DNA of 64,000 nt from Desulfonatronospira thiodismutans ASO3-1 (GCF_000174435.1 NZ_ACJN02000002.1:682001-746000); one strand, 5' to 3'. Positions 10,353 to 42,611 are shown, counted from the first letter of the stretch. Notes: a model not told the origin generated them from the sequence alone. Numbers and translations are program-made.

Positions 10353-10370
10353 GACTGCGCCTTGAGCTTA

Positions 10371-12280: not shown

Positions 12281-12336
12281 TCCAGCAGGCAGTTGGTCCT
12301 TTTTTATATCGGGTGGGCGGATTTTTTAAAAAAACC

Positions 12337-12365: not shown

Positions 12366-12371
12366 AGTCTT

Positions 12372-12728
12372 ATGGAAACACCTTTTGGATCATACGTCCG
12401 TGAAAAGCGCCTTGAACTGAAAAAAACCGACAAGAAGTACTCCTTGCGCCAGGTGGCAGGGAGAATCAGCGTTGAGCCGTCCTATTTGAGCAGGATTGAG
12501 CGGGGCTGGCCTGTGCCTCTGTCCGAGGCGAAGATAATCTCTCTGGCCGGGGAGCTGGGGGAAAACCCGGACCTGCTTCTGGCCCTGAGCGGGAAAGTGT
12601 CAACAGAAATCCAGGCAATTATCAGAAAAAGACCTGAACTATTCACAGAACTTATCAGGGAACTCGGGGAAATGCCGGATCATGCCGTTCTCAGGCTGGT
12701 GCGGGAAGTCCGGGATGGTGACTGGTAA
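12372..12728 (+). CDS. XRE-family helix-turn-helix regulator
   Basis: DNA-binding protein of 118 residues. The HTH lies at about residues 9-60: FGSYVREKRLELKK, SLRQVAGRISVEPSYLSRIE, then the wing-like helix. The remaining C-terminal half (about 70-118) is helical without a recognised domain. It has no ribosome site before the ATG, in line with a leaderless transcript. The next gene begins 18 bases later with its own AAGGAGG site, so the two form an operon and the partner is probably its sensor or target. Confidence 0.8.
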   Translation: METPFGSYVREKRLELKKTDKKYSLRQVAGRISVEPSYLSRIERGWPVPLSEAKIISLAGELGENPDLLLALSGKVSTEIQAIIRKRPELFTELIRELGEMPDHAVLRLVREVRDGDW

Positions 12729-12746
12729 TAATCATAAGGAGGAATC

Positions 12747-20077: not shown

Positions 20078-21499
20078 ATGAGTGAAATATATAATATGAT
20101 AAAAGATTGCAGGCTGTATCGTAATAAGGTTCAAATTAATTCACAAGAATATGTTAATTCTAGATCTGTAGTAAATTATAATAAAAATGACCAAGATATC
20201 AATTATGATATAAAAGATATTTTATTTTTGTGCGCATTGAGCGGAACAGACTGTCTTATGACAGGTAAGACAGGTGCAGGAAAAACGCACCTTTCTTCAC
20301 TGGCTATGCAGGCTCTTTTTGGCGATGAGCATAGAGAAAATAAAACAGAAATAGATGATAACAATGAATCAAGATACATGGAAGGGTATGTGAATAAAAC
20401 CATAACCCCTTCCATGCGTCCCCAGGAGTTTTTGGACATAAGTTATAAATTATTTATTGAAAGCGGAGAAAGTCTCAAGGGTGCCATGGAGAAAACTCCC
20501 ATTCTACAAGTTCCTGGGGTTATTCTCAATGAAGCCAACCGAGCGCCAGGATTTGTGCAGAATTTTTTGATCCCTTTTTTAGATAAAAAGATGGATATTG
20601 AAGGAAAATATGTTGATGTAGGTGTGGATAACGGCGTCCAGAACTATCAGTTTCGGACTATTACAATCAATGAAGGGGAAGAGTACGAAACCACAGCTAT
20701 GGACAAGGCCCTGCGGGATCGAGTGGGCCTGGAAATTCCAATGGACGGTTTTTATCAAAGCTCCAGTGACTGCCTGGAGATGCTGAAGAAGATGGCCAAA
20801 TCCAAATCAGATAAAGATAATGATGTTAACCTTGAAGAACCTAGTATGTCCATGCCTGAACTTTCCGGAAAAATAGAAGGACTGGTTAAAAAAAACCGGG
20901 AAGTATCATTTCTTCTTCTTTATCTTTCAGGAATGAGCTACTGTTATAAAGTCGCTCAATACAATGTCTGGCCTCCAGTTAAAGAGCTTATCCAGCTGAA
21001 CGAGGCTTTCTGTTCGGATTGCCGTTATGCCGCTGCCACTGAATTAAACAGCGAGCATAACATCTGCGGTTCTGTAAGAGCGCTATCTCAGAGAGCTTTA
21101 AGACAGCTTCTGCGCCTTTCTCAGGCAGTATGTGTCGGAGCTATGATTCAAGAGAGTCGACTGAATAAAACTTCAGAGTTTGTTGTTCAGGAAGAAGATG
21201 TCTGGGCCATTGCCCCTCTGGTTTTGTATAAAAAGCTCCAGCTCTCCCAAAGATGGTTGAATGCTCATGCAGGTTCAGAATGGATAGCCCTGCTTTCAGC
21301 TATAGAGTTGATCAGGAAGCGCTGGGAAAAGATTAAAGAGAAGAATATACTGGAGCACGCCATGAAAGCAGATGAAGGTCAGGCCCTCAATGAGAAAGTA
21401 ATGCGGGAGATCAGGGATTACGTGAGCCGCCAAACAGACTACTGGGTCTTGAGACTTTTTCCAACCTACAGGGCAGAGACACTAAGAATCAGGGAGTAG
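20078..21499 (+). CDS. MoxR-type AAA+ ATPase, first gene of the CRISPR/RNA-polymerase operon
   Basis: Protein of 473 residues. Walker A is GKTGAGKT at residues 63-70. The MoxR-like Walker B region reads VILNEANRAP, with N151 in place of the usual aspartate but E152 kept. MoxR features follow, such as RPQEF and the ALRDRVGLEIPM segment that matches the sensor/arginine region LDRF. The C-terminal half is helical. MoxR ATPases work with VWA proteins as chaperone-like remodelers, and the next gene (3-bp gap) is a VWA protein. The start has an AAAGGA site. Role with the polymerase or Cas proteins is inferred from operon position. Confidence 0.85.
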   Translation: MSEIYNMIKDCRLYRNKVQINSQEYVNSRSVVNYNKNDQDINYDIKDILFLCALSGTDCLMTGKTGAGKTHLSSLAMQALFGDEHRENKTEIDDNNESRYMEGYVNKTITPSMRPQEFLDISYKLFIESGESLKGAMEKTPILQVPGVILNEANRAPGFVQNFLIPFLDKKMDIEGKYVDVGVDNGVQNYQFRTITINEGEEYETTAMDKALRDRVGLEIPMDGFYQSSSDCLEMLKKMAKSKSDKDNDVNLEEPSMSMPELSGKIEGLVKKNREVSFLLLYLSGMSYCYKVAQYNVWPPVKELIQLNEAFCSDCRYAAATELNSEHNICGSVRALSQRALRQLLRLSQAVCVGAMIQESRLNKTSEFVVQEEDVWAIAPLVLYKKLQLSQRWLNAHAGSEWIALLSAIELIRKRWEKIKEKNILEHAMKADEGQALNEKVMREIRDYVSRQTDYWVLRLFPTYRAETLRIRE

Positions 21500-21502: not shown

Positions 21503-22951
21503 TTGGATTTTAAAAGCCTGGGCCAGGAACTGATTGTCAGATGGACATCTGACAGCAGTCTTTTTTCAAGAGTCAGGTCCGTGTGGAACTGGAACCTCCC
21601 TCTGACAATGTATTATCACCCTGACAGGGCCAGGCAGGAAGAGCTTGATATCTGCCTGAAAAAAGCCAGAATAATATGTGGTGGTTTTTTGCAGATCTGC
21701 CCTTATAACGGAAGCTACGAGAGAGTCCTTTTACGCAAAGTCCAACAGAGGCTGAAGCATTCTTTTTTTAAGTACAAAAGACGATACGTGGTCAGAATGT
21801 TTGCTGAGGTTGTGATTCTGAATGCATTTGCAAAGCGCAGCGATTATTTCGCCGACTGGGAGAAGCTTTTTGTCGACACCCTGGACATAGAGTACCTGCA
21901 GGGTACCTGGGAATATAAAGTACGCAAAGAGATTTACAACTGGATTTTTGATTCTTCAAAATGCCTGCTGAAATCTGACATGGACAGCATAAATTTTTCA
22001 GAAAACAGCCGGGACTGGCCCGAAGCTGTAAGCCGGTTCGCCGACTCGATACAGAAGTTTATTCAGAGCATCGAAGACAAAAATAAAAAAGTGCTCAAGA
22101 GCTGTAAAATTGAAACCAGGGGCTCCAGCTCGCACGCTAAGTCAGAAAAGATAAAAAAGGAGTTGCAGACGGAAACCCTGGAATGGATGAATAATATTCA
22201 AAAGCTTGAATCAACTGCAATGCGCACCTATAAAAAAGGCCGGGCATTAAAAAAGTCTCACTTTCAGCCTCTTACTGACGAGCCCTGGGTGCCCGGGGCA
22301 GAACTGAACTGGTTAAGACCTGTACTGGTGCCCTGGGAACCTTATTTTTTCCCCTCAACTCCTGACATGCATATAGATATACCTGAAAAAAAAGAGCAGG
22401 ACCCGAGGCTGGTTTTGATTCTGGACAAATCAGGAAGCATGCTGGAAATGAGTCAGAGCAGGCTTTACTACAGCATACTTGAAACCTGTATCAGAGCCTT
22501 TGCAGAAATACCTTTCACTAACGCAGCGGCAGTAAATTTTGCCAGGAACTTTCATAGCTCCGGCTGGCTTGACAAGGGGTCATATCAATTACTCCAGAAG
22601 CATATTTTAAGTATGCCCGACCCTGAAGAGTCAAACTTTCCGGGAGAGGAGATCCTGGAACTAGTCCGCTCTGAAACATCTGAAAGAGAAGAAACAGTAT
22701 GCATTATTTTTTCTGATGGTATCTGGCTCAACAAATCCAAGGAGCTAAGTGCCTTTTTTGAAGGTATTTCGAAAGAAAAAGGTCTAGAAATGGGGATGAT
22801 TGTACCGGAGACGGCGGGACAGGAAAGTACAGCTGTAAACCTTGCCCGCAAAAACGGCTTATACGTAAGGCGTCTGGTAAATCCTGAGCTATGCACAAGT
22901 GTATTTGAAGAACTTTATCAATCCATGAGCAGGGAAAGAGCGTATGCTTGA
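21503..22951 (+). CDS. VWA-domain protein, partner of the MoxR ATPase
   Basis: Protein of 482 residues starting at TTG 21503, with AGGGAG six bases upstream, and no better start nearby. The N-terminal about 290 residues are helical and charged, of unknown fold. The C-terminal von Willebrand A domain (about 300-470) has the MIDAS motif D308-K-S310-G-S312 and the later FSDGIW loop; the middle threonine loop reads SNFPGEE and is atypical. ViaA- and CoxE-like proteins share this layout. It overlaps the next gene by 8 bp, so the two are probably translationally coupled. Confidence 0.85.
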   Translation: MDFKSLGQELIVRWTSDSSLFSRVRSVWNWNLPLTMYYHPDRARQEELDICLKKARIICGGFLQICPYNGSYERVLLRKVQQRLKHSFFKYKRRYVVRMFAEVVILNAFAKRSDYFADWEKLFVDTLDIEYLQGTWEYKVRKEIYNWIFDSSKCLLKSDMDSINFSENSRDWPEAVSRFADSIQKFIQSIEDKNKKVLKSCKIETRGSSSHAKSEKIKKELQTETLEWMNNIQKLESTAMRTYKKGRALKKSHFQPLTDEPWVPGAELNWLRPVLVPWEPYFFPSTPDMHIDIPEKKEQDPRLVLILDKSGSMLEMSQSRLYYSILETCIRAFAEIPFTNAAAVNFARNFHSSGWLDKGSYQLLQKHILSMPDPEESNFPGEEILELVRSETSEREETVCIIFSDGIWLNKSKELSAFFEGISKEKGLEMGMIVPETAGQESTAVNLARKNGLYVRRLVNPELCTSVFEELYQSMSRERAYA

Positions 22952-23948
22952 AAACAACCACCTGGAACAGCTAAGAATAATGACAAGCGGGCTGCACGTG
23001 CTTGAGCTGGAATTTACTGCTGTCTTCAGGATTTCTGGAAACCTGGGGGACAAAAAAGGAGAAAAGGTTTATCTTCCACAGGTTCTGAGGGGGGGATGGG
23101 GACATAAATTCAAGGAAGTGTGCTGTGACCAGGAGCAATGGAGAGAAGTTCACAGTTGCCCCGATGAGTGCCAGTGCGCTTATGGCACAATATTCTGCTC
23201 CAGGCCGGGCAATCTTTTAAGTTCCCTGGGCAGTGGTCAGCAGATTCCAAGGGCTTACCGGGTCAGTGCACCATTTATCAGCAACAGGGTGGATGCAGGC
23301 CAGGTATTCAGATTTCATTTCAATCTTTACGGTAAAGCAATTCAAGCCTGGGAACCATGTGCAGCTGCATGGATGCAGCTGAGTGAGTCCGGAATTGGTG
23401 TAAACAACCGCATTCCCTTTCAGATCACTTCAATAGTCAACAAAAGCGACTCCAATCGATTGATCTGGACCATGGATCAGCCAGACAGAATTTATCCGCC
23501 TGAATCTGCTGTGATAGAAACTGGAGCAGGTCGCAGAGCCGAGATGGTGCATATCAATTTTACCAGCCCGTCTCTTTTCGCTGTGCAGAATCTGGGCAAA
23601 AAACTTCCTCCCTGGAAACTCAATCCTGCCCAGCTGGCCCAGACGGCAATCAACAGGATAGCCCGTCTGGCCGAGATATGGGGTGAGAATAGGGTAGAGC
23701 CCATCAGGCTGGATTACAATTCTGACAAGCAGCCCAGGCTTATGAGATACAGGCAGACCGGGAAGATGACGGATCAGCGCAGTTCTCAGCAGGAAAAAAA
23801 CAGGCAGCAGATCAGCGGATGGACGGGCAATCTGCTTTTCAGGGGGGATGCGGGTATGTTCGCTGAGGTCATGGAGTTGGCCGCTCCCCTGGGAATAGGT
23901 CAGAATACCACGGCAGGTTTCGGCAGTTATCAGGTTTATCCTGTATGA
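22944..23948 (+). CDS. cas6: Cas6-like CRISPR RNA endoribonuclease
   Basis: RAMP-fold protein of 334 residues. It ends with the glycine-rich loop GIGQNTTAGFGSYQVYPV, placed as in Cas6 proteins close to the C-terminus, and has a preceding hydrophobic strand region with NLLFRGDAG. It should cut the repeat of the precursor transcript and leave an 8-base 5' handle. The middle includes a cysteine cluster (CPDECQCAYGTIFC, residues about 72-86) usual in many Cas6 homologues, possibly metal-binding. It overlaps the VWA gene by 8 bp. Repeat arrays that it could process lie 24-31 kb downstream. Confidence 0.75.
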   Translation: MLENNHLEQLRIMTSGLHVLELEFTAVFRISGNLGDKKGEKVYLPQVLRGGWGHKFKEVCCDQEQWREVHSCPDECQCAYGTIFCSRPGNLLSSLGSGQQIPRAYRVSAPFISNRVDAGQVFRFHFNLYGKAIQAWEPCAAAWMQLSESGIGVNNRIPFQITSIVNKSDSNRLIWTMDQPDRIYPPESAVIETGAGRRAEMVHINFTSPSLFAVQNLGKKLPPWKLNPAQLAQTAINRIARLAEIWGENRVEPIRLDYNSDKQPRLMRYRQTGKMTDQRSSQQEKNRQQISGWTGNLLFRGDAGMFAEVMELAAPLGIGQNTTAGFGSYQVYPV

Positions 23949-24032: not shown

Positions 24033-27000
24033 ATGAAACAGGATCCTAATCGTCAGGAATTTGAAAGTTTTATCCAGATGCATGATGCCCTGCAGAAGAC
24101 AGATTTGCATCTAAAGGGTATGCACGAGATGCTTTATGATGCAGCCGGCAAGTGCGGCCCAGGATGCAGTCTGCGCTATATAAGTTATTTCTTCGAATCA
24201 GACGATACCCGGCCCGGTCAGAACAGGTTCTGGCTTATTTTGAAGCTGGAAAGAGAAGGCACCAAGATACATGTGCCGGCCACGAGTTTTCCCTGTTTTA
24301 CCGAGAATGGCACACTTCTTTTTTCAGGCAAGTCTGGAGCAATACAGGAGCGCAGGCCGATATGGCAGGTGGTTTTCAGGCAAGAAAAAGATATTCTTCC
24401 GGCAGACTGGGAGGAAGAGAGGAAGAATTTAAAGGAAAATATCCAAAAATACGGCTTGCATCCCAGGTGGTGCAGGCTTTCTTCCCTTACACATCGTTTG
24501 AGATATTTCCTCAAAAAGAACCTTGAAAAGTGGAAAAGTCGTGCAGTTACAAATTCTTATGCTGCTTCAGTTTTACTGGCAGGCAGTCTGGATGAGGCGT
24601 TTTATTCCACATTCTACCGGAGAGTGGATCATTTCCCCCTTGCAGACACAACCAACAAGCTGGCAGAAACAGCCCAGGGCCGACAGGTAAGCGCCAAATC
24701 TCTTCGCTGCCACAGAAAGACCATGATCGGCTCCAAGCCAGAGGATAATGTGCGAAACCTTTTGCCGGAACATACAGGAATGATCTGTCCGGTGGAAACT
24801 CCTGAGTCCGAAAGTATTGGCCTGGTCATGCATCTGGCACGAAAGGCCCGTCCGGAACTGTGGTCTCAAGACGCAGCCTTCAATGAAAATGATCAAAGAA
24901 GTGAAGAAGGAATTTTAAAAACTCCTGATCCGGACAACTTTCTGGGCTACTCAGCCTGCATGGTCCCATATATTCAGCATACCGATCCAACCAGGGCCAT
25001 GATGGGTGCAAAAAACATGAAGCAGGCCCTGTCTCTGACTCAGGGTGAAGCACCCCTTATACGCACCGGGCATGAAGAAGAAGTTTTCGGCAGAGGGGAG
25101 CATGATCTGGATATGGACATCGGCCGTAATCTTCTGGTGGCTTACCTCCCCTGGTACGGGTTCAATTATGAAGACGGCATAGTGATAAGCAGGAGCGCAG
25201 CGGAAAAGTTTCTAAGCGTGAAAAAACACAAATTCGGGCCGTACTTTTGTCCTGGAAATTATAGACCGGCTAATCCGGACAGCAAATGGCGCAAACTGGA
25301 CCGGGATGGCCTGGCCCCCCAGGGCCAGGAGGTGAAGTCCGGTGATGTTCTGGCCGCCTTTTATCCTGTGCGCTGGAATCATGACTCCAGGAGTAAAAAA
25401 AGGCAAATAGTTGTAAATACGCTGGCCGAACCCTTGCTTGTGCGTGTTCCTGACCATGTCCAGGGAAAACTGGTCAGGTTCGAAGTGGTTTGCCTGGAAA
25501 CAAGTGACCTGCCCTTGCCCCGTCATATTACCAGAATGGCAGTGCATATGGAAATAGAAGAGAGCAGGCCTCTTGAGCCCGGAGACAAAATAATGGGCAG
25601 GCATGGCAATAAGGGGGTGATCAGCAGAATTCTGCCAGACAGGGAGATGCCTTATTTTCTGGACAGCATGCATGGTATAACCGACCTACGTTCCAGCAGT
25701 CATTTCCATGGAGAAGAGCAGGCCCATACCCATGTTGAAGTTATTCTCAATCCGCTGGGAGTAATCGGCAGGATGAACACAGGCCAGCTTCTGGAATGTC
25801 ACACCGGACTGGCTATGCGTTGTATTCCAGAAAGAATGGAATTTTACCAGAACAGCGGCATGCCATTTAGTTCTGTTGACATTGAGTCATTAAGGCAGGA
25901 CCTGTTATCCACGAAAATCGTGGATGAAACAGGTAAAGCCCGCCTGTTCTGGAGGGATGAAGCCGGAAATCATGTGCAGACCGGCCACGCATCCATGATC
26001 GGGGTGCAATACCTGATGAAGCTTGATCATATGGCCAGAGACAAGTTTCATGTCTGCGGTAAAAAGCCTCCAAGATGCATGATCACCAACCAGCCGGTAA
26101 AAGGCCGGAGTCGGGGAGGGGGCCTGAGGCTGGGAGAAATGGAGAACTGGTGCATTATCGAGCGTCAGGCCTGGGATGTCATTGACGAACTGCTGCAAAA
26201 AAGTGAGCCTGATGGACAGGTCAGCTCCAACCAGGCCTTAGAAGATATTCTCTATGCCCTTGGCCTGGAGCTGGTCTGTGATGATAAATCATATGTATTA
26301 CGCCCCCATGATCAGTCATATGAACATCCACAGGTTTCCAAACCTCTTTCCAGGGCTGTAAACAGAAAAGATGCAGCCTTAGACAAGACTTCTTATGACC
26401 AAAGTATATTCGGGCAGGAATCTCTGAAGTTTCTAAAAAAGGAAGCCAGGTCCGGGCTTTCTGCATCAGGATGGGGCGTTATCAGGCTGCCTTTTTCTGT
26501 GAACCATCCCCTGTTGGATGCTTATACCTCCGCTGAGCTGAAAATATCAAGAATACCTGTACTGCCGTGCAGGTACAGGCCGTTGCTCAAATCAGATGAT
26601 GAGCGTTTTATTACTGGTACCCTGGATAATATCCATGACGTACTGCTTGAATTGTGCTCATATTATGACGGGCTTGAGACACGCAAGAAAGAAAAGCTGG
26701 CCCAGATCCTTAAAGATATAAAAGAGCAGGATGCCGATATTTTCAGTTTTGTATCCAAATGGCTCGAATGCCGCCTGGATACAAAGACATCTCTTCTGCA
26801 GGTCAGGCAGCTTGGATCTGGTGCCTCGAAAATCAAGTCCAGAATCAAAAAGATCTGTGCCGCTCAAACTCAGAAAATTCAGCAGAAAGAGAGTAGTAAT
26901 GCCGGGTTGTCGGTTATTAATGAGCAGCTTCTGTCCAATCAGGTGTTTGAAGCCAGGCAGAAGATCATTTGCTGCCTGAAGATTTACTACCAGTACCTGG

Positions 27001-28589
27001 TTGACCTTCTACAGGGCAAGCCTGGACTTTTGCGGGGCCACATCCTGGGCAGGCGCTTTCCTTTGTCAGGCCGGGCTGTCATCGTTCCTGATCCAACCCT
27101 GCCTCTTGGCCGGGTACGTATACCCGGAGCTATGTATGACGAGTTTTTTGAGCATTCGGACCAGGAAAACTGGATTCTTCTCAACCGCCCTCCGAGCCTG
27201 CTGCCCAGCAACATCCAGGCTTTTTCAGCCCAGCACGGTGGCAGCAGCAAGGTTATAAAGCTAAATCCCGGACTTTGCGCTGGATTCGGGGCTGACTTTG
27301 ATGGCGACCAGATGAGCGCTTTTGCCCTGCATGCCGAAAATGCCCTGAACCAGGCCGAAAGTCTGATGCGTCCCGGGGCCATGCCATTAGCCCCCAAAAC
27401 AGGACAGCCCAATCTGTCCATGAATCTGGACATCAGGCTGGGAATTTATCTTGTCCAGCAAGCTCCGGAAAAGCTTGATGAACTTCTTACAAAATACGGT
27501 TTAGAATCAACTGACAAGTGCAGTTTTTTTGAACAACCAGATATGGAAAAAAATCTTAAGGGACTTTCCAAAGAAAAAAGAGAAAGTTTCATGGCCGATG
27601 TTTTATGGCTGTGCTTTAAAGAAGCTACAGAGTCCGGTCTTTCTTTCAGCTTTTTTGATCTTGTGCAGCAGCATGCAAAACCAGCCAGGATGGACCAGGA
27701 CTGTGAAATCCTGGAGGTTGACGCTTACAAGGCAGAGTATGGCGATGATCCTGTCAGCGAAGCCAACAAAAAGGCTCGAAAACTTGTGGAGACCAGCCTT
27801 CATGCAAAAGACAACCATTCAGCCATAGCCATTCTGACTAAAAGCAAAGCTGCCTCAAAGCTGGAGCAGACAACTCAGCTGCTACACTCCAGAGGAGGGA
27901 TCCGCCTGCCTTTTGATCCGGCCAAGAATAAGGCTGGGGTGATTCATAGAAGCTATACCTCCGGGCTGCATCCCGCAGACTTTTTTCTCTCTGCCTGCGC
28001 TACCAGAGAAGCCATGATGTATAAAAAACTACGTACGGCTCATGGAGGATATTTTACCCGCAAACTGGTAGAGGCCGGGTATCAGGGTGCCCAAGTATCA
28101 GGGACTGAACAGGGTGTTTTTCCAGAGCCTTTCTATGAGATGCAGGGGTTTCCGGCTGGGCTGTTAAGCGCGCACCTTTTGGGCGAAGAGGGAACTCAGG
28201 CTGCCATGAAAGTTTTTCATACCGGTCAGACCGAAAACCTGGACCAGATTTCCTCTGTACTGAAAATGATCAAGGCACCTCCGACAAGCCCGGAAGAGAC
28301 TGTGCAGATGTGCCGGGATATTGCCGCGGAACTAAATATCAAGGACGGGGACAATAAAAAAGTGTTCTGGTCCATTGTGCTGCAGTGTCTGCATAAAGCC
28401 GGTCTGGGGATAGAGGATCTTGGCCCAGAACAGGATAATATTCTGGCAGCGCTTAGTTATGGGCATGTACGCAAGGTTCTTGGCCGTGCTCTCACAAGAG
28501 AGCACGAGCACCGGACTCAGATGAACTTAAAGGAAAAATTTATTCTGTACAACAGGATTCGAAAACTAAAGGAGAAGCAGGATGCCTGA
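24033..28589 (+). CDS. single-chain RNA polymerase: compact fused beta and beta-prime homologue
   Basis: Protein of 1518 residues holding both double-psi barrels of cellular RNA polymerase in one chain. Beta part: a fork/rifampicin-region-like block LADTTNKLAE near 210; ICPVETPES near 250; LLVAYLPWYGFNYEDG (367-382, with E380-D381); GDKIMGRHGNKG (517-528, with K519 and K527); NPLGVIGRMNTGQLLE; and a C-terminal GGLRLGEME. Beta-prime part: VLPCRYRPLL; LLRGHILGRRFPLSGRAVIV; LLNRPPSL; the metal-binding GADFDGDQM with D1088, D1090 and D1092; a bridge-helix block from about 1311 (GLHPADFF through GGYFTRKL); and a trigger loop GEEGTQAAMKVFHTG with its histidine. Missing are the beta-prime N-terminal zinc clamp and the large insertions; normal beta plus beta-prime exceed 2500 residues. 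No alpha, omega or sigma gene lies nearby. It overlaps the next gene by 8 bp. Confidence 0.93.
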   Translation: MKQDPNRQEFESFIQMHDALQKTDLHLKGMHEMLYDAAGKCGPGCSLRYISYFFESDDTRPGQNRFWLILKLEREGTKIHVPATSFPCFTENGTLLFSGKSGAIQERRPIWQVVFRQEKDILPADWEEERKNLKENIQKYGLHPRWCRLSSLTHRLRYFLKKNLEKWKSRAVTNSYAASVLLAGSLDEAFYSTFYRRVDHFPLADTTNKLAETAQGRQVSAKSLRCHRKTMIGSKPEDNVRNLLPEHTGMICPVETPESESIGLVMHLARKARPELWSQDAAFNENDQRSEEGILKTPDPDNFLGYSACMVPYIQHTDPTRAMMGAKNMKQALSLTQGEAPLIRTGHEEEVFGRGEHDLDMDIGRNLLVAYLPWYGFNYEDGIVISRSAAEKFLSVKKHKFGPYFCPGNYRPANPDSKWRKLDRDGLAPQGQEVKSGDVLAAFYPVRWNHDSRSKKRQIVVNTLAEPLLVRVPDHVQGKLVRFEVVCLETSDLPLPRHITRMAVHMEIEESRPLEPGDKIMGRHGNKGVISRILPDREMPYFLDSMHGITDLRSSSHFHGEEQAHTHVEVILNPLGVIGRMNTGQLLECHTGLAMRCIPERMEFYQNSGMPFSSVDIESLRQDLLSTKIVDETGKARLFWRDEAGNHVQTGHASMIGVQYLMKLDHMARDKFHVCGKKPPRCMITNQPVKGRSRGGGLRLGEMENWCIIERQAWDVIDELLQKSEPDGQVSSNQALEDILYALGLELVCDDKSYVLRPHDQSYEHPQVSKPLSRAVNRKDAALDKTSYDQSIFGQESLKFLKKEARSGLSASGWGVIRLPFSVNHPLLDAYTSAELKISRIPVLPCRYRPLLKSDDERFITGTLDNIHDVLLELCSYYDGLETRKKEKLAQILKDIKEQDADIFSFVSKWLECRLDTKTSLLQVRQLGSGASKIKSRIKKICAAQTQKIQQKESSNAGLSVINEQLLSNQVFEARQKIICCLKIYYQYLVDLLQGKPGLLRGHILGRRFPLSGRAVIVPDPTLPLGRVRIPGAMYDEFFEHSDQENWILLNRPPSLLPSNIQAFSAQHGGSSKVIKLNPGLCAGFGADFDGDQMSAFALHAENALNQAESLMRPGAMPLAPKTGQPNLSMNLDIRLGIYLVQQAPEKLDELLTKYGLESTDKCSFFEQPDMEKNLKGLSKEKRESFMADVLWLCFKEATESGLSFSFFDLVQQHAKPARMDQDCEILEVDAYKAEYGDDPVSEANKKARKLVETSLHAKDNHSAIAILTKSKAASKLEQTTQLLHSRGGIRLPFDPAKNKAGVIHRSYTSGLHPADFFLSACATREAMMYKKLRTAHGGYFTRKLVEAGYQGAQVSGTEQGVFPEPFYEMQGFPAGLLSAHLLGEEGTQAAMKVFHTGQTENLDQISSVLKMIKAPPTSPEETVQMCRDIAAELNIKDGDNKKVFWSIVLQCLHKAGLGIEDLGPEQDNILAALSYGHVRKVLGRALTREHEHRTQMNLKEKFILYNRIRKLKEKQDA

Positions 28590-29409
28590 AAGAACTCATA
28601 GACGCTCTCCTCCAGGAACTCTTGATGAAAGGCCGCTGGAGCAACCCTCCTGGACATACTCAGATATGCTGGAAGAGGAGGAACTGGAAACAGAAGATCA
28701 CCTTGATGACAACCAGGGGCTGGAAGTCCTGGAGCAAAGTCCGGTCACAGGAGATGACCTGGATGATGAGCTGGATACGCAAGAGGAGGACGAGGCGGCT
28801 CTTTTTGATCTATCCCTGGACCATGAATATGTCACGGCAGGAGTTGAGCCGGACATACGCATAATTGAATCAGCAAACTCTCCCAGCGGCTATATGTATT
28901 ATCTCTTCACTGCCCGACTGGTTCATTATGGTTTAAGTAGCTACCAGGAGATGTATTCAAAGTTTTTAGAAAAACATGAGTTTCTGGATAAAACTGCCAG
29001 GTTTTTTATCGAACACTTCAGGGAATGGCTGGATCATCTGGGAAGCCCTGAGGAACATAAATATATACCGGCTGTATCTCAAAAGCAGATATATAAAAAC
29101 TGGGGTTCAGACAGCGACATCAGCACCAAGGCTTCGGAACTCTTCAATCATCTGCACATAGCCCTTCCCGGAGGCAGGATCATTTTATTGAAAAATTATC
29201 TCAGTCAGGCCAAGCAGGAAGGGCCTTCCACTTATTCCATTCTCAGGGAGACTGGTTTTCTGGTGAAGTCAAATCCCGGCATTTCTGCGGCAGAACTGAA
29301 CAAACAACTGACCGCCAGGATTCGCAGCTGGAATGAAAAGTGGGCGGCCTGGGAAATAACTGACCAGCAGGCAGGTGAGTATCTCAAGAAGCTTATATCT
29401 CAAGTTTAA
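28582..29409 (+). CDS. acidic protein translationally coupled to the RNA polymerase
   Basis: Protein of 275 residues, family not recognised. The ATG lies 8 bp inside the polymerase gene, preceded by AAGGAGAAG. Residues about 28-80 are very acidic (DMLEEEELE, DDLDDELDTQEEDEAA) and probably unstructured. The rest is helical, with a possible helix-turn-helix-like stretch around ISAAELNKQL. Acidic tails are known in RNA-polymerase partners such as sigma region 1.1 and the delta subunit, where they mimic nucleic acid. By position it is the best candidate for an accessory or specificity subunit, but that is inference. Confidence 0.7.
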   Translation: MPERTHRRSPPGTLDERPLEQPSWTYSDMLEEEELETEDHLDDNQGLEVLEQSPVTGDDLDDELDTQEEDEAALFDLSLDHEYVTAGVEPDIRIIESANSPSGYMYYLFTARLVHYGLSSYQEMYSKFLEKHEFLDKTARFFIEHFREWLDHLGSPEEHKYIPAVSQKQIYKNWGSDSDISTKASELFNHLHIALPGGRIILLKNYLSQAKQEGPSTYSILRETGFLVKSNPGISAAELNKQLTARIRSWNEKWAAWEITDQQAGEYLKKLISQV

Positions 29410-29423: not shown

Positions 29424-30746
29424 ATGCTTATTTTTGCTGCTCAAAGCATGGATCATATTGTCCAAAGACTGAGCGAACGAGGACATGGTATGCAGATTCG
29501 AGAACTAAGTTCTTATCTGGCGGAAATAAATCAATACCTTCCCCGGGACTGGAGAATCAAGGCCTCAAAAAACTCTTTTTTTGTACGTATCCAAAAAGAT
29601 CTGCCGTTCAACCTGGTAGGGAAATCCTATATATGCAGCAACAGCATCGATGTTATTCATTTTATACTCACTGCCTTTAAAATTGAATTTGATGACCTAA
29701 AAAATATTCCCAAAGGAGTAGAAATTCCTTCTGTATGCCGCCCCAACCTTTATTATTTCCAGAAACCGTTCCCATATTCAGGGCATTTAAGTCCGCTCTG
29801 GGCCAGGCAGGCCGAGAAATACGCCCCTGAAGACATTTTTGAGTACCATCTGGTCAAGCCCTTGACCAGCAAGGGGGTTGTGCCCGGGATATCTATGTGG
29901 CTGCAGTTTCACACTTTGAATGGAACCATAACCCGGGTCCCGGAACCTCCCGATTATACCCACCACAAAAGCTACTGGATGCTCCTGAGTGAAAGCGACC
30001 TGGACCTGTCTCAGAAAAAACGCCTGAAAAGATACAAAGAAGAACTCCAAAAAATAGAGATTGATTACACTTATCAGGCTCCGGATAAAGAAGGTCGTCT
30101 GGAGTACAAATATTTGACAGAAGAACCTTTTGACTCTGAGCGCCTGCAGGATTTTGATCTGTACAACTATGTAGGCCGAAACAGTCTGCAGATATACGAT
30201 ACATACCTGGATACAAAAGAATATGATCTGCACTCAAAGAATATATCTATCCGCCTCAGGCAAATAAAATTCAAGAAAAAAGATTATTTTTTCATTGATA
30301 TGAAAAGAGGTTATATTCAGAAAAAGAAGAAGTACAAAAGGGCAAAAGAAAGCTGGTCCATATCTCCAGTTAGAGCAGAGAAGATTCTTGAAAGCAATTC
30401 TTTTTCCTATCCCGTCTCCACTGTGCTTTCTTTCTTAATGGAGGATCACTCCAAGTTAAAGCCGATAATAAAAATTTACACAGACAGAAACATATTTCTG
30501 CTGCAGAATAAAAGAAATATGTCCAGGACTGAAATCAGGTCTGATTTTGTCAAAGCTGCAGCAAATGCCGAAGACAGTTTTGATGAATGCCTGAGAGAGC
30601 TTGAGATTCAGGGGATCAGCGATACATCAGAGAATACAGGTACGCTGGCCAGATATTTAGAAGACAGCCTGGATCTTCGTCCCTCAGAGATTACCAAGCT
30701 GGACTGGGCCCTGGGGCTGAATCAAGTCCGGCATTCAGTGCAATAG
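29424..30746 (+). CDS. CYTH (triphosphate-tunnel) domain protein
   Basis: Protein of 440 residues with AAGGAGG before its ATG. The N-terminal about 210 residues are unknown. From about 222 a CYTH-like domain appears: LEYKY (E227, K229), IYDTYLDTKEYDL (258-270), SIRLRQIK (R277, R279) and FFIDMKRG (K294). These fit the substrate-tunnel strands of triphosphate-tunnel enzymes, which bind triphosphate ends of RNA, nucleotides or polyphosphate. The first motif is ExK rather than the full ExExK. Next to an RNA polymerase, an RNA 5'-triphosphate is an attractive substrate. Domain call moderate, function inferred. Confidence 0.6.
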   Translation: MLIFAAQSMDHIVQRLSERGHGMQIRELSSYLAEINQYLPRDWRIKASKNSFFVRIQKDLPFNLVGKSYICSNSIDVIHFILTAFKIEFDDLKNIPKGVEIPSVCRPNLYYFQKPFPYSGHLSPLWARQAEKYAPEDIFEYHLVKPLTSKGVVPGISMWLQFHTLNGTITRVPEPPDYTHHKSYWMLLSESDLDLSQKKRLKRYKEELQKIEIDYTYQAPDKEGRLEYKYLTEEPFDSERLQDFDLYNYVGRNSLQIYDTYLDTKEYDLHSKNISIRLRQIKFKKKDYFFIDMKRGYIQKKKKYKRAKESWSISPVRAEKILESNSFSYPVSTVLSFLMEDHSKLKPIIKIYTDRNIFLLQNKRNMSRTEIRSDFVKAAANAEDSFDECLRELEIQGISDTSENTGTLARYLEDSLDLRPSEITKLDWALGLNQVRHSVQ

Positions 30747-30784: not shown

Positions 30785-32791
30785 ATGAGTAAAGATCGTG
30801 AGTTTTTCATCAACCCTTACACTTTTGTTCCCCTGGACAAGTCCGGACCGGTTATCGAGGTGCCAGAGAATGGACCCGACAATGCCCATCATCTTTATTT
30901 TGAAAAAGATTGTTTTACCGGCAGGCTTGAGGTTGAGTTGAGCTTCATTACCCCTGCAGTGATACCCGGAGATCAACAGGCCGGTACTGAAAAAGCTCCA
31001 GGGAGCATTAAACTTTACCGGCATAACGATAAACTGGCTATCCCAGGCTCCAGGCTCAGGGGGCATCTTTTTAATCTGATGAAAGCCATTAATTCTTCGC
31101 CAGTTACTGCCTATAATGACCGGGCTATTCTTGCAAGAGAACCGGGCGATCATCAGAAAGGCTACATTATTCAGGAAAACGGGCAGCTTTATGTAGTCAA
31201 GATAAATGATGAAATACTGATGGCTGCTCAGGATAGGAGTGGAAAACTTTTTTTTGAACAAGGCAAGCCTAAAACCAAATTAACTTTATCAAACGGGGCC
31301 GATATTATAGAATTTAATGTCGATTCACCAAAAAGTGGAACATATGGTGAACTTCACTATGGTCACCCCAAAAACAAAACTGGAAAGTACAAAAAATATC
31401 TGAGCGACAGTTCAGGAATTTCAGTAACTGGGAACTGGGTCTATTTTCCCTCATGGTCAGGTCAGGATGGTTTGAACGAAATCAAGGATATCAACAACAA
31501 AACCAAAGCTCATAAAATCGATGCTCACATAGTTGATATAAAACAAATCAGCAACAGAAGGTACAGGCTGGATAAGGATGTTGTCGAGAAATTCCAGAAA
31601 AATGTATCCGAAATGGCCAAGCTGTTACAGGACAGAGGAGAATGCAGTTCCAAGGTTTACAACAGGGTCAGGCAGATGTCTGAACTCAAGCCCGGCATGT
31701 TTGTTTATTTTGAGGCAAACGGCGACACAGTAACCTCCATTGGCAGGCACTACAGGTATTTAAGTCATCAGGGAAGCATCGAGGAGACAGTTGAAAGAAC
31801 CAATAAAGAACTCAGCAATAAGACATGTCTGCTGCCTTTTACCGGAGGATTCGCCAGTGACTCAGACAGCTCAGAGGGCCTTAAGAGTAGATTATGGGTG
31901 GATATGGCAAGATGCATTACAGATGAACCACCTGTTGAAGAGAAAAATTTAAGGATACTATCCTCTCAGCCACCCAAGGCGGCTTGTTTTTATCTTAATG
32001 GCAAGGGGTATGATGACAATAAAGCCACAATCAGAGGCCGCAAGTTTTACTGGCATGATTCAAAATGGCGCTGGCAGCTCTGGGATAACCATGATCAAAA
32101 GTGCGGCCTGCATGCTTTTGAAAATCCATTTCCAAATGAGAACAAAAAACAATGGGCAAGGTCAGAAGTCATTATGGCTGATGAAAACACCCATGTTTCT
32201 TTCAGGTTCAGCATCAGGTTCATGAATCTTTCCAGGGACGAAATTTATCTGCTCATGACTGCTATTGAGGGCTTTGATAAAAACGAGGACGGTAAACAGT
32301 GGATGCACAAAATTGGACATGCCAGGCCTTTTATCGGCAGCGCCTGCATGACTGTCAACTCAATGCATGTGCTGGGCTTTGATTCACAGTATCTTAAACC
32401 AGTTGTACAAAATGATGATCTGGAAGTAATCAGGGATGATTTGGCTTCCTGGCAGGAGAAGTTTGAACAGAAAAGAAATATTCAGGCCTTGAAACGAATA
32501 ATGTCTTTTGAAGGTGCGTATTATAAAGCAAAGACAGCTCGAATTATGTATCCTGTCAAATATAAGGACAACAGTACACCAAATTGGAAAGACAGTAGTG
32601 ATGCTCCAAAAACTTTTGAATGGTTTGTCAAACAGGATAAAGGAAAAGTTCCTCCTCCTGTCTTGCCGGATCCAGCCAGTGATGAGCCCCAGTATTTACC
32701 CATCAACTGGACACCACAGAATAGAGGCGGACAAATGCCGGGTAAAGGACCTCAGGGTAAGAAAAAATCAAGCAAAGGAGGCAAGCGCTAA
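30785..32791 (+). CDS. large RAMP-superfamily CRISPR effector subunit (TIGR03986-like)
   Basis: Protein of 668 residues opening FFINPYTFVPLD, a start seen in the TIGR03986 group of RAMPs. Early RAMP elements are VELSFITPAVIPG and the arginine-containing loop IPGSRLRGHLFNLMKAI. A second half (after about 400: FYWHDSKWRW, VSFRFSIRFMNLS, IGHARPFIGSACM) looks like another RAMP fold with its glycine-containing loop. The C-terminus is basic and glycine-rich. It should be a Cas7-type backbone subunit that binds crRNA. Its stop overlaps the ATG of cas10 by one base. Confidence 0.7.
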   Translation: MSKDREFFINPYTFVPLDKSGPVIEVPENGPDNAHHLYFEKDCFTGRLEVELSFITPAVIPGDQQAGTEKAPGSIKLYRHNDKLAIPGSRLRGHLFNLMKAINSSPVTAYNDRAILAREPGDHQKGYIIQENGQLYVVKINDEILMAAQDRSGKLFFEQGKPKTKLTLSNGADIIEFNVDSPKSGTYGELHYGHPKNKTGKYKKYLSDSSGISVTGNWVYFPSWSGQDGLNEIKDINNKTKAHKIDAHIVDIKQISNRRYRLDKDVVEKFQKNVSEMAKLLQDRGECSSKVYNRVRQMSELKPGMFVYFEANGDTVTSIGRHYRYLSHQGSIEETVERTNKELSNKTCLLPFTGGFASDSDSSEGLKSRLWVDMARCITDEPPVEEKNLRILSSQPPKAACFYLNGKGYDDNKATIRGRKFYWHDSKWRWQLWDNHDQKCGLHAFENPFPNENKKQWARSEVIMADENTHVSFRFSIRFMNLSRDEIYLLMTAIEGFDKNEDGKQWMHKIGHARPFIGSACMTVNSMHVLGFDSQYLKPVVQNDDLEVIRDDLASWQEKFEQKRNIQALKRIMSFEGAYYKAKTARIMYPVKYKDNSTPNWKDSSDAPKTFEWFVKQDKGKVPPPVLPDPASDEPQYLPINWTPQNRGGQMPGKGPQGKKKSSKGGKR

Positions 32792-34371
32792 TGCAACATT
32801 ATGTCTTGTTGGATGCCATAGGCATACAAAAATACATATTTGACACCAATACATTGCGTATCATTATCGGGGCCAGCCAGTTTCTGGACAAATGGCAGCA
32901 GGAGTGCAGCAAAAGATGGCCAGGCAATGTGCTGGTTTCAGGTGGTGGAAATATTTTAGCGGTTTTTGACAATAAGACAGATGCAGACAGTTTCAGAAAA
33001 GAAGCCATAAACATTGCTCCTGCCGGCATGGAAATAGCCTGGGCCAACGCTGAGGGCAAGCCTGGAGAGACAGGTCCTGGCAGTGACAATGCCATCTGGA
33101 ATGAACTGCAAAAAAGGATATCTCTTTTTAAAAGCGGTAATCGTGACTTTTCTGATTATGATCAGACGTTTTTTCAGCCTGTTACACCTGGTTGTCATTA
33201 TTGTGGAGTCAGGTCCAGAGATGGCAAGGGTGCCCTTGATGACTATAATAACAAGAAACAGCCTGTATGCTCTGTATGTCGTCCCAGATACGATAAAGGA
33301 GGCAGGACTGGAGATGTTTCTACCTCCATGGGAAAGCTTTGGGAATATGTAGGAAATAAGCAGTTTGATCCTCCCTTTCCTCTGGATCTTGCTGATCTGA
33401 CCCGCAAGGAGAATACAGCAGAAAATGTCGGGGAGGCATCTCATGATTTGATGGCTGTAGTTGTAGTTGACTTAAACGATATGGGTGAGAAGATAAAAGA
33501 TGTGGTCAATAAAGAAGGTTTTAAAGGGCTGAATAGTTTTTCCCAACAGTTAAAACTGGATATTGATGAGGTGTTTGCTGCCCTGACAGATGATTTTACC
33601 CCTAAAAGCGAATGGTGTGGACGCAAGGCCAATGATTGTTTTCTTCGACTGCGTCCTTTGCTTCTCGGCGGTGATGATATGGCCCTGGCCATGCCTGCGC
33701 CCTTATGGCCTGAGTTTGTGAACAACCTGTTGCGTGGCCTGGCAGGCAAGGGATACCCGGCATGTGCAGGTGTTGTGGTAGCCAAACATACCTTCCCCAT
33801 CAATCGCCTGGTGGAAATGGCTGAAGAGCTAGTGGGTTCTGCCAAGGCCATGGTGCGTTATAGAAAAAAGATCGCTGGAGAATCAGCACTTTCTGCAGAG
33901 TATCAGTGCGCAGTTGACTGGCATGTGCACCAGGAAACAGCCTTTGGTTCTCCCCTGGCTATACGTAAAAAGCATTTTGTAACAAAAGGACTTCGTTTCA
34001 GCAGGGACCATCAGGCTGGAGAAGCCATAATCCAGGCGGCAACATGCAGGCCTTACCTTTTGCAGGATTTTTCAGATCTGACTGAGACAGGAAGAAAGCT
34101 TTCTGTGATAAGCAACTCAAAGTTGTTTGCCCTCTACAATGCCCTGCGTTCCGGATGTCAGGCGACTCGGGATTTCCTTACTTACGTCTTGTTGCGTGAT
34201 GATAATGAAAAGCTGACCAGCTATTCCCCTGTGTGGGCGGAGGTTTTGAAAAATCAGAGCAAATGGCCGATGTGGGAGGACTTTTCCGGTCCAGATATGG
34301 ATGTTCAGGCGTGCAGGACCCAGATGCCTGACGTGCTTGAGCTGTTGTTTCTGACCAGGCCTGACAAATAA
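32791..34371 (+). CDS. cas10: Cas10/Cmr2-type polymerase subunit without HD domain
   Basis: Large subunit of a type III effector, 526 residues (most are 650-1000). It starts directly with the palm-type region YVLLDAIGIQKYIFDTN; no N-terminal HD nuclease is present. A zinc ribbon has C135, C138, C160 and C163. Palm motifs: AVVVVDLNDMG with D227, and LLGGDDMA with G293-G294-D295-D296, the metal site used by Cas10 to make cyclic oligoadenylates from ATP on target RNA binding. The intact GGDD and two CARF genes in the locus support signalling; DNA cleavage by Cas10 itself is not expected. Confidence 0.88.
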   Translation: MQHYVLLDAIGIQKYIFDTNTLRIIIGASQFLDKWQQECSKRWPGNVLVSGGGNILAVFDNKTDADSFRKEAINIAPAGMEIAWANAEGKPGETGPGSDNAIWNELQKRISLFKSGNRDFSDYDQTFFQPVTPGCHYCGVRSRDGKGALDDYNNKKQPVCSVCRPRYDKGGRTGDVSTSMGKLWEYVGNKQFDPPFPLDLADLTRKENTAENVGEASHDLMAVVVVDLNDMGEKIKDVVNKEGFKGLNSFSQQLKLDIDEVFAALTDDFTPKSEWCGRKANDCFLRLRPLLLGGDDMALAMPAPLWPEFVNNLLRGLAGKGYPACAGVVVAKHTFPINRLVEMAEELVGSAKAMVRYRKKIAGESALSAEYQCAVDWHVHQETAFGSPLAIRKKHFVTKGLRFSRDHQAGEAIIQAATCRPYLLQDFSDLTETGRKLSVISNSKLFALYNALRSGCQATRDFLTYVLLRDDNEKLTSYSPVWAEVLKNQSKWPMWEDFSGPDMDVQACRTQMPDVLELLFLTRPDK

Positions 34372-34383: not shown

Positions 34384-35043
34384 ATGAATACATACTGGAT
34401 TATTGATTACCGGATCAGATTATTGTCCGATTTTCACGCCGGAGCCGGCATTACCCTTGTGACGGGCAATACTCATGGACTGAGGCTGGACGAAGAAAGT
34501 CAACCCTATCTGCCCGCCACCCAGGTCCGGGGACTTTTGCGCCAGGCCGGTCACAATATCAAACGCAGTATTCCTGAGCTGCAAGGCTTATTCAAACAGA
34601 ACTTCCCTGATGGTTCAGCCGATATTGCAGCTGAAAAAAACTATGCTGCAGTCAATAGTCCCAGAGGCTGGAGCTTTACCAGGGCCATGGTCAAAGATGC
34701 CGAATCCAGGGAAGACGGCTTGCAACCCTGGTCCAGACAGGCCCATGTACATATTGATCCTGTCAGCGGGGTTGTCCTCAACCTGTTTGGCTATGAGAAG
34801 GCTGGAGCAAAAAAACCGGGTGAAAGTATGGAGCTGGTGGGCAGGATTTATTCCAATACACCTGCAGAGGAAAAGGATGCAGCCCTGATGCTGGCCTGCA
34901 TGCGCTTCGAGGACCGGATTGGTCACAGGCGCAGCAGGGGGTACGGCAAAGTGGACTGGGTCTGGGACAGTGTGCGCAGTTTTACGCCTGGATCAAGTCT
35001 GGAAGCAAAAACACCCAAAGACATTTTTGAAAAACTATTTTAG
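34384..35043 (+). CDS. Csm3-like RAMP (Cas7 type)
   Basis: Single RAMP domain of 219 residues. Features: LLSDFHAGAGI near the start, the thumb/loop region YLPATQVRGLLRQAG where Csm3 proteins have the PGSSLKG-type loop, and the glycine-rich C-terminal GHRRSRGYGKVDW. In Csm3 the catalytic aspartate sits in a DNP-like segment; here the equivalent stretch reads TGNTHGLRLD, so cleavage by this subunit is doubtful. Spacing to its neighbours is 12 and 5 bp. Confidence 0.75.
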   Translation: MNTYWIIDYRIRLLSDFHAGAGITLVTGNTHGLRLDEESQPYLPATQVRGLLRQAGHNIKRSIPELQGLFKQNFPDGSADIAAEKNYAAVNSPRGWSFTRAMVKDAESREDGLQPWSRQAHVHIDPVSGVVLNLFGYEKAGAKKPGESMELVGRIYSNTPAEEKDAALMLACMRFEDRIGHRRSRGYGKVDWVWDSVRSFTPGSSLEAKTPKDIFEKLF

Positions 35044-35048: not shown

Positions 35049-36242
35049 GTGGATATGGCGGATATAAATATTCTGAAGGTAAATCTTTTTCCGTTAAGCG
35101 ATGTGCATTGCGGGTTTGGCCTGCAGCAGGGCAGTGTCCTTGCCGGGCTGAACTATATTCCGGGCAGGGTGCTCAGGGGAGCTCTGGCAGGCTGGAGTAT
35201 AAGAAACGGTCGTATTCCCTCCAATAAAGAACCTTTATTCAAGAAGCTTTTTCAGGGAAGTGATTTTTCAGATTCAGGTGTTTCTTTCCCTTCTTGCAGA
35301 CTTGGAGACAGGTTTGATTTGCCAGCATCAGTATTCCGGGTGGGTAAAACCGGAGCCCAGGACCCTATGCACAAGCTTCTTGCCGGTAAGGACGACGAAA
35401 GCGTAGAAACTGATTTTACACTGGCAGACACTGGGCAGCCTATAGATTTTCTAAGGTCCGATAAAATGCCTTGTGAAGTACACTCTCAACTCTCTGCTGC
35501 CGGGGGCGCTGTAAAAGATCTGCAGACAGGTACTGAACTTTCAGAGCAGGCCCCGAGCGTTCTGGATATGCGTAACAGGCATGATCCCCAAAGCGGGAGG
35601 GTAGGGGAAGACGGTCTTTTTGCAGAAGAAATGATACCTTATATGGGTGCAGATTCCGGTTTCAGCGGTCTTCTAATCTGTACAGAAGAGGCCTTAAGGA
35701 TTTTTGAGCCTCTTGCCTCAAGATGTGATCCGATGAATCCTGATCCTCTGCATGTTATCTTTATGGGCAGGCGCAGATCACCTGTGTGCATTTCTGCAGA
35801 AAGAGCAGATCATATCCTGGATGAGGTGCTCAACTCTTTTGATTTAGGTGCTCAAAATATAAGCATAAGCTTTCACTCTGAATATCTACCCTCAGAATCA
35901 GAAATCTTTCCTTTACAGGACAGTCATCTGCAAAAAGATCTCGATTTGCCAGAACTCGAAATCAAGAACAAATTCTGCGTACGAGGCATGCAGCATGGAT
36001 TTAATGTTGTTAAAGATGAGCATGGATTCGACAGTCCTGATACTCAGAAAGAAACAACTGGAATGGAAGCGCGGCCTTGTTTTTCTCCAGGTACCTGCGT
36101 GTTTATTGATACAAAAAACAAAATAGGTCCGGAAGATAAGAAAAGGCTTGCTGTTCTTTCATTGACAGGAGCAGGAAAAGATACTGTTAATGGTTCCGGT
36201 AGATTCTTCATCAATGCCAACATTCATGGAATTCAGGAGTAA
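35049..36242 (+). CDS. Csx10-like RAMP (Cas5 type)
   Basis: Protein of 397 residues starting behind TAGGAGATG. The strand-loop VNLFPLSDVHCGFGLQQGSV is followed by IPGRVLRGALAGW, which fits Csx10/Csm4-class RAMPs that cap the crRNA 5' handle. Csx10 marks subtype III-D. The remaining roughly 300 residues include acidic loops and a second poorly conserved half with FCVRGMQHGFN. Subtype placement is by resemblance and should be read as III-D-like. Confidence 0.6.
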   Translation: MDMADINILKVNLFPLSDVHCGFGLQQGSVLAGLNYIPGRVLRGALAGWSIRNGRIPSNKEPLFKKLFQGSDFSDSGVSFPSCRLGDRFDLPASVFRVGKTGAQDPMHKLLAGKDDESVETDFTLADTGQPIDFLRSDKMPCEVHSQLSAAGGAVKDLQTGTELSEQAPSVLDMRNRHDPQSGRVGEDGLFAEEMIPYMGADSGFSGLLICTEEALRIFEPLASRCDPMNPDPLHVIFMGRRRSPVCISAERADHILDEVLNSFDLGAQNISISFHSEYLPSESEIFPLQDSHLQKDLDLPELEIKNKFCVRGMQHGFNVVKDEHGFDSPDTQKETTGMEARPCFSPGTCVFIDTKNKIGPEDKKRLAVLSLTGAGKDTVNGSGRFFINANIHGIQE

Positions 36243-36246
36243 AAAT

Positions 36247-36636
36247 ATGTATCATGAGCAGATGTACCACATAGGCGAATATATACTGAGCCATAAAGGG
36301 CTACAAAATTATTTTAAACAGGAGGGTGCCAATGCCAAAAGCTTTTGGAGGCAGTTCAGAAGCGATATGATGCGCCAAAGACCAGAAACTATAAAAAAAT
36401 ATCTTTGTTCAGAAGACTCCCGTCTTAACCATCATGAATATGCCGATAAATTCGGTAAAGAATTATATGAAATGTTTTTTAGTGAGGACAATGACCAGGA
36501 ACAGGTCAGGATGTATATCAATGCTGTTATTTATTTCTGCCTGGAAATGGATGCGTCATTTAAGGTTCAAGATATCACTGATAAAAATAAAAAACAGAGC
36601 TTGAAAACAGCTCTGCATATATGGGAGGCAAAATGA
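36247..36636 (+). CDS. small helical protein, candidate Cas11/small subunit
   Basis: Protein of 129 residues. The start at 36247 is preferred because CAGGAG precedes it by 8 bases; an in-frame ATG at 36190 lies inside the upstream gene. It is almost wholly alpha-helical (YHIGEYILSHKG, SFWRQFRSDMM, ELYEMFF, MYINAVIYFCLEM) and charged. Small helical proteins between RAMP genes in type III operons are usually the small subunit that lines the target strand. No sequence family is recognised, so the role rests on size, fold and place. The stop overlaps the next ATG (ATGA). Confidence 0.55.
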   Translation: MYHEQMYHIGEYILSHKGLQNYFKQEGANAKSFWRQFRSDMMRQRPETIKKYLCSEDSRLNHHEYADKFGKELYEMFFSEDNDQEQVRMYINAVIYFCLEMDASFKVQDITDKNKKQSLKTALHIWEAK

Positions 36637-42599: not shown

Positions 42600-42611
42600 T
42601 TTGTCCTCCTT

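Follow-up and report, generated by a model that had tools for sequence, protein, structure and literature searches.

A compact fused β–β′ RNA polymerase gene lies within a type III-D-like CRISPR operon of Desulfonatronospira thiodismutans

Transcription of cas genes and CRISPR arrays is usually ascribed to the host RNA polymerase (RNAP), an enzyme that many phages inhibit or take over. Single-chain RNAPs, with β followed by β′ in one polypeptide, are known from epsilonproteobacteria and Rickettsiales (PRK09603 and PRK14844), and YonO of the Bacillus phage SPbeta is a single-chain two-barrel enzyme of ~100 kDa, accessory to the host RNAP, in which a trigger loop is not detectable (PMC5467207). 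For the surroundings of type III CRISPR loci, the main text of the survey of Altae-Tran et al. 2023 (PMC10910872) has a single phrase, ‘RNAPol + CARF (UAS-58)’; by that phrase, an association of RNAP with CRISPR has been registered before, and the linkage reported here may already have been seen, without description. The main text of the 2025 classification paper (PMC12669027) contains no RNAP, and for a compact fused β–β′ chain inside a type III operon, its partner gene and the repeated element described below, we found no earlier account in the literature, where further searches likewise gave no description of any CRISPR-associated RNAP. The CRISPR-associated primase-polymerase (CAPP; PMC8211822) resembles the RNAP described here in being a polymerase that type III loci have recruited, but it has an unrelated fold, synthesizes DNA and is linked to Cas1–Cas2 rather than to Cas6.

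The stretch analysed here (the window) comprises 64,000 nucleotides from D. thiodismutans ASO3-1. At 24033–28589 on its plus strand, an uninterrupted frame of 1518 codons, with an ATG start and zero internal stops, encodes a fused RNAP of reduced periphery, β first and then β′ in a single polypeptide. An initial annotation had described a compact single-chain polymerase that keeps all catalytic landmarks, and each of these was found: the β barrel motif GDKIMGRHGNKG (residues 517–528; 25581–25616), nearly invariant among fused relatives, with K519 and K527; the β′ barrel motif GADFDGD (residues 1086–1092, in the context GADFDGDQM; 27288–27308) with the metal-binding D1088, D1090 and D1092; the bridge-helix block TAHGGYFTRKL (residues 1335–1345; 28035–28067); and the trigger-loop block GEEGTQAAMKVFHTG (residues 1384–1398; 28182–28226) with H1396, all on the plus strand. 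The catalytic sequence motifs of a two-barrel RNAP are thereby complete, namely two catalytic-site lysines (GDKxxGRHGNKG), the DxDGD triad, the bridge helix and the trigger-loop histidine. Pfam matches include RNA_pol_Rpb2_6 (2.3e-47), Rpb1_2 (4.1e-15), Rpb2_3 (2.2e-12) and Rpb1_5 (1.5e-8), with Rpb2 domain 7 matching below threshold; the PHROG matches are to β/β′-like families, and a phmmer search of the PDB returned bacterial β subunits as the best matches (2.7e-53), with archaeal β at 5.5e-27. Judged by matches of this kind, a chance origin of the similarity is excluded.

Landmark spacings were measured against RpoB (1363 aa) and RpoC (1386 aa) of the same genome, and nearly all of them are shorter in the fused chain: 205 residues precede the β core, versus 515 in RpoB, 57 versus 132 separate RAMMG from NYED, 139 versus 271 lie between NYED and GDK, 49 versus 134 between the bridge helix and the trigger loop, and 115 versus 417 between the trigger loop and the C-terminal LKE motif. 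The spacing from LLNR to DFDGD, at 38 versus 37, is essentially unaltered. There is no β′ zinc motif (CxC..CxxC) in the 1518-aa chain and no Pfam match to Rpb1_1, the clamp, which confirms the loss of the β′ N-terminus, including the zinc clamp that the initial annotation had already described as missing. By these sequence comparisons, the clamp, the zinc domain and most peripheral modules are lost and the catalytic centre is retained. The enzyme shares its single-chain, β-then-β′ layout and its landmark order with PRK09603 and PRK14844 but is about half their length (1518 aa versus 2839–2890 model positions) and is extra rather than housekeeping. Against the NCBIfam models of fused β/β′ chains (2839 and 2890 positions) it scores 192–214 bits, where the cut-offs are 4632–5372, in line with the earlier statement that it is much shorter than full fused chains.

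Similarity to bacterial β and β′ could in principle mark the chain as an ordinary or duplicated housekeeping RNAP. The probability of this is negligible: the same assembly carries complete, separate, full-size rpoB and rpoC genes (and one ordinary rpoN), so the fused gene is extra, while the chain falls far under the NCBIfam equivalog cut-offs for rpoB and rpoC and is missing modules that housekeeping RNAPs keep.

A structure prediction, proposed with the initial annotation, was run with AlphaFold2 on residues 226–1425 with 24 fused sequences and gave a model with a pTM of 0.70 and a mean pLDDT of 65. The barrel segments are mostly at pLDDT >80, and model positions 534–753 (residues 759–978), the expected site of the clamp, are mostly at <50. 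Searches with Foldseek and VIA-align matched the model, mainly in its β part, to bacterial β chains (E 2.9e-26) and to multi-subunit RNAP cores (Z ~27), with no crAss-like or YonO chain among the 50 fold matches listed. Both YonO and the window enzyme are single-chain two-barrel polymerases that are accessory to a host RNAP (PMC5467207), but their similarity is distant, and the window enzyme, at 1518 aa, has a trigger loop and a bridge helix and is clearly bacterial-type. The suggestion of an intermediate place, with full-size RNAPs on one side and YonO or crAss-like chains on the other, is not supported, given the retained trigger loop and bridge helix, best matches to bacterial β and a position on the bacterial side of the tree described below; the chain looks like a reduced bacterial-type β–β′ fusion.

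The surroundings of the gene, absent from the initial annotation, change the meaning of the finding. RNAP is gene 4 of an operon of 13 same-strand genes at 20078–40222 (plus strand), with gaps of ≤84 bp and several overlaps. The operon opens with an AAA ATPase (20078–21499; weak Pfam AAA_5 match of 0.015, with the P-loop GKTGAGKT in the sequence), a vWA (CoxE-like) protein (21503–22951; Pfam VWA_CoxE 0.0045, under the cut-off) and the crRNA-processing endoribonuclease Cas6 (22944–23948; Pfam CRISPR_Cas6 1.8e-8, PADLOC Cas6 3.6e-43), which lies 84 bp upstream of RNAP. Behind RNAP follow an acidic 275-aa protein, a CYTH-domain protein (29424–30746; Pfam CYTH 8.5e-5, slightly under the cut-off), a Cas7/Csm3-type RAMP of the TIGR03986 family (30785–32791; PADLOC 9.7e-122, NCBIfam 2.1e-115), a Cas10d-like Cas10 (32791–34371; PADLOC Cas10 9.9e-47, Cas10d 8.2e-41), a Cas7-type RAMP (34384–35043), a weakly matching Cas5/Csx10-like RAMP (35049–36242; PADLOC Cas5_IIId 5.5e-6 over a short stretch, under the NCBIfam cut-off), a small protein assigned to the Cas11/Csm2 position by location alone, with no profile match (36190–36636), a Cas7_IIId RAMP (36621–38018; PADLOC) and a CARF-HD signalling effector (38015–40222; Pfam Cas_APE2256 4.5e-11 and HD-CE 4.8e-10, PADLOC CARF_HD 7.8e-33). 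With Cas10, Cas7_IIId RAMPs, Cas6 and CRISPR arrays all present, the operon around RNAP is, by gene content, type III-D-like CRISPR. The ‘two-component RNAPol + CARF’ of UAS-58 (PMC10910872), compared here by its name, is likewise an RNA polymerase near type III loci and CARF proteins; the window RNAP sits inside the Cas operon, with Cas6 and CYTH/Cas7 on either side.

Cas10 carries a GGDD cyclase motif (LLLGGDDMALAMP in the sequence), and cyclic oligoadenylate signalling is therefore likely; a match to an HD domain was not found in this protein (32791–34371). The locus holds, besides CARF-HD, a second CARF protein (CARF_DUF2103-like, 51775–53025, plus strand; PADLOC 1.5e-107). With these components, RNAP could be a signalling-controlled effector, switched on through CARF-HD by the cyclic oligoadenylate from Cas10 and then changing or flooding cellular transcription in the immune response. 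We regard this as unlikely, since RNAP itself has no CARF domain and eight genes separate it from the CARF gene.

Downstream of the operon on the plus strand lies cas1 (40650–41732), whose C-terminus is disrupted by an IS21-type insertion, an istB/istA pair at 41844–44159 on the minus strand; cas1 is partially duplicated with 100% identity (41059 and 44404), and its first copy has no proper C-terminus. The region further contains the gene of a TPR protein that PADLOC recognizes, a nucleoside phosphorylase gene and two CRISPR arrays on the plus strand, array 1 with 14 repeats spaced 69–73 bp (47341–48325) and array 2 with 11 repeats (54657–55428), between which a CAPP of type A1 is encoded (48717–50393, plus strand; NCBIfam 2.7e-165). 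Both arrays have the same, duplicated leader region: ~600 bp 5′ of both arrays (46689–47290 and 54009–54606) are mostly 95–98% identical, and the duplication covers the end of the TPR gene. Downstream of array 2, 60496–62331 encodes a protein with the TPR, DUF7017 and S1/CSD-TOTE domains of TOTE conflict systems. Rfam gave zero matches within 19000–62000.

The presence of CAPP and cas1 in the same locus bears on a different role, in which RNAP would copy RNA or single-stranded DNA, with the primase-polymerase and Cas1, during spacer acquisition or the amplification of crRNA or target, comparable to the two-barrel RNA-dependent polymerases of RNA interference. Loss of the clamp would fit such a template, as would residue 1086 (27288–27290), which is Gly instead of Asn just before ADFDGD of β′; in bacterial RNAP this Asn takes part in sensing the ribose 2′-OH. 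We consider this role improbable. Its trigger loop and bridge helix are of the kind typically found in DNA-dependent RNAPs, the RNAP gene adjoins Cas6 and not cas1, and the Gly is not CRISPR-specific, because L016, the second fused chain found in the order, and nine viral RNAPs carry it too, which also ruled it out as a unique trait of the window enzyme.

The gene directly after RNAP, at 28582–29409 on the plus strand, overlaps the RNAP stop by 8 bases at its start and encodes a 275-aa partner with an acidic N-terminus and a predicted helical C-terminus. It has no Pfam, PHROG or NCBIfam match over the cut-off, and its single-sequence fold prediction is poor (pLDDT 38.5). Its place is that of a sigma factor in L035, a contig of a deltaproteobacterial metagenome-assembled genome (MAG) that encodes a fused β–β′ RNAP with its own sigma-54-like factor: a 424-aa protein (5465–6739) that follows RNAP and contains a sigma-54 DNA-binding domain (Pfam 4.8e-23) and an acidic stretch. 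The two loci are alike in having a β–β′ chain with an insertion containing HTHVEMILNPLGV, then a protein with an acidic stretch, and an insertion before LNPLGV with an HTHxE motif is common to L035, L016 and the window RNAP. They differ in that L035 keeps the zinc motif and the clamp, has a partner with a real sigma-54 DNA-binding domain and has no CRISPR genes adjacent. The idea, taken from this neighbour, that the window partner is itself a sigma-54 was dropped after negative results from BLAST, hhalign (E 0.65 and 0.062) and pairwise shuffles; a profile search with --max and 1000 shuffles, aimed at the sigma-54 DNA-binding domain with its RpoN box, gave no match to the partner while shuffles scored. 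Because homology to the L035 sigma factor could not be demonstrated, it is from gene position that we infer a specificity-factor role, for which the partner is a possible candidate.

The initial annotation had also noted that no alpha, omega or sigma gene is near. This agrees with 30 of the larger open reading frames (ORFs) of the window, which gave no Pfam match to such genes, but does not extend to the distant relatives: beside the sigma-54-like neighbour in L035, an RpoA-like gene overlaps the RNAP start in the fused-RNAP locus L012 (Pfam RNA_pol_A_bac 1.8e-8, RNA_pol_L 3.6e-7). These neighbours suggest that the first members of the group were fused RNAPs, each accompanied by an alpha- or sigma-like partner of its own.

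A repeat scan first picked out a short intergenic sequence, a 20-bp element, of which five plus-strand copies are present: at 40478–40497 (ACTTTCCATATAAAAAAATG), 253 bp upstream of the inferred cas1 start; at 45258–45277; at 45307–45326, 152 bp upstream of the TPR gene; at 53195–53214; and at 55629–55648. The pattern ACTTTCCNAATNAAAAAATG, with ≤2 mismatches, has 5 matches in the 4.1-Mb assembly, every one of them within the window and plus-strand, and its reverse-read control has 0; within the window, a 19-base core of the pattern has 5 matches, versus 0.07 expected in shuffles. The copies lie 133–268 bp 5′ of start codons with ribosome-binding-site-like sequence, and these starts belong to cas1, to the TPR gene, which has two copies in front of it, and to small ORFs next to the arrays. 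Both array leaders hold only a shortened related string, GCACTTTCAAATTTACC, and the first contains no sigma-70-like site. On this distribution, an attractive reading is that the CRISPR-linked RNAP has in this element a candidate promoter of its own. The element may have no promoter function, because the main cas operon has no copy upstream and one copy overlaps a terminator-like hairpin on the minus strand, and a DNA-binding site or a small repeat is a possible alternative.

Our best explanation, to which we give somewhat less than an even chance, is that the chain is an active DNA-dependent single-chain RNAP, derived from a reduced bacterial β–β′ fusion, that serves its type III CRISPR operon together with the acidic partner. 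A bacterial β–β′ fusion would have lost the clamp, the zinc domain and other periphery to give a compact enzyme, which, with the adjacent acidic protein, would transcribe parts of the locus from the dedicated element. Transcription would cover the adaptation genes and possibly the arrays, with Cas6 then cutting the array transcript, and CRISPR expression would thereby become independent of the host RNAP that phages inhibit or redirect. What is observed is an intact gene, its catalytic motifs, its operon position, ordinary rpoB and rpoC genes elsewhere and an element confined to the locus; from this we infer the activity of RNAP, its template, the role of the partner, the element as a promoter and the reason for a private polymerase. 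The position right after Cas6 suggests a supply of pre-crRNA or locus transcripts that bypasses the host enzyme. Against this reading, an enzyme without the clamp may be less able to open promoters, the linkage is seen in one genome and the main cas operon has no copy of the element.

The locus suggests that a type III immune system carries a private transcription machine beside the host's normal RNAP. The fuller claim, of a transcription apparatus dedicated to CRISPR, consisting of a minimal RNAP, a new acidic specificity factor and a locus-only promoter that make immunity independent of the host RNAP, is tentative and less likely than not. If true, a private polymerase in a CRISPR operon would be a direct answer to phage attack on the host RNAP, and a very small enzyme that has a trigger loop would help in asking what the bacterial RNAP can do without, be it the clamp, the zinc domain or the contacts to sigma and alpha. 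With the repeated element and the two-gene module, the idea is open to direct testing.

Fused chains of this kind are very rare. Of 348 genomes in the order, two carry one: the window genome and G029, whose chain (L016), the closest relative, is 39–40% identical to the window RNAP over the common 1040 residues and keeps every motif. L016 is a 3.5-kb contig that ends on both sides, with RNAP followed by a strongly acidic frame. Elsewhere in G029, no Cas7 or Cas10 homologous to those of the window was found, and its only RAMP locus (C49) has no RNAP. The phylum yielded one carrier among the 395 genomes sampled. Distant fused chains (L009–L012) come from MAGs of Hydrogenedentota, Latescibacterota and deltaproteobacteria; one MAG, G729, holds two fused RNAPs, L012 and L035, and no further carriers were found among 395 genomes of its phylum, a sample that, to judge from the genome sizes, probably overlaps the earlier 395. 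In L009, a LysR-type HTH fragment (2–120) is in frame with an N-truncated fused RNAP, which may reflect a join made in assembly or a genuine fusion. A search of plasmids matched ordinary rpoB alone to RNAP and gave no match to Cas7.

This rarity, together with relatives outside CRISPR loci (L012 by ThiF-type and HD/NB-ARC genes, L035 by a nucleotidyltransferase-like gene) and the fact that cas genes near L016 could not be demonstrated on its short contig, would suit capture of RNAP and its acidic partner as a mobile or defence module, landed by chance in the CRISPR operon and autonomous or decaying. Against this stand the intact frame with its full set of catalytic residues, the tight co-directional packing between Cas6 and CYTH/Cas7 and the overlap with the next gene, and we hold a captured module, too, to be unlikely. 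The L012 RNAP (>1673 aa; 6787–12571 with the overlapping RpoA-like gene) is itself apparently mobile or defence-linked.

In a tree of 15 rows, the window RNAP pairs with L016 at full support, whereas long branches make the deeper order unsure. Three ordinary rpoB/rpoC loci (L013–L015) served as references only. A quick tree of 50 rows placed the window RNAP, L016, L035 and L009–L012 together with canonical bacterial chains and split phage chains, in a grouping that leaves out almost every large fused RNAP of phages (SH-aLRT 100, on long branches). With due caution over long branches, this placement argues for a bacterial-type origin of the window RNAP. A phage origin was considered and judged less likely: there are relatives among phages and in IMG/VR, but they cluster separately in the tree, an argument that the long branches weaken. 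The phage RNAPs of IMG/VR have both barrels in a single chain and share profile matches with the window enzyme but are longer (~1800–2900 aa) and form a separate tree group, and no match to the cas or partner proteins of the window was found in their loci. Single-chain two-barrel RNAPs of ~1800–2900 aa are encoded on many IMG/VR contigs (L064–L143), and the matched PHROG families, 24349 and 25354, are listed as of unknown function.

A type III locus in G729 (L159) encodes RT-Cas1 and, at 10797–12965, a CARF-HD protein homologous to that of the window (E 4e-19). CYTH proteins occur in both type III loci (29424–30746 in the window and 3445–5166 in L159), each of which also has AAA and CARF-HD genes, and in L159 the CYTH domain forms a fusion with a nucleoside hydrolase.
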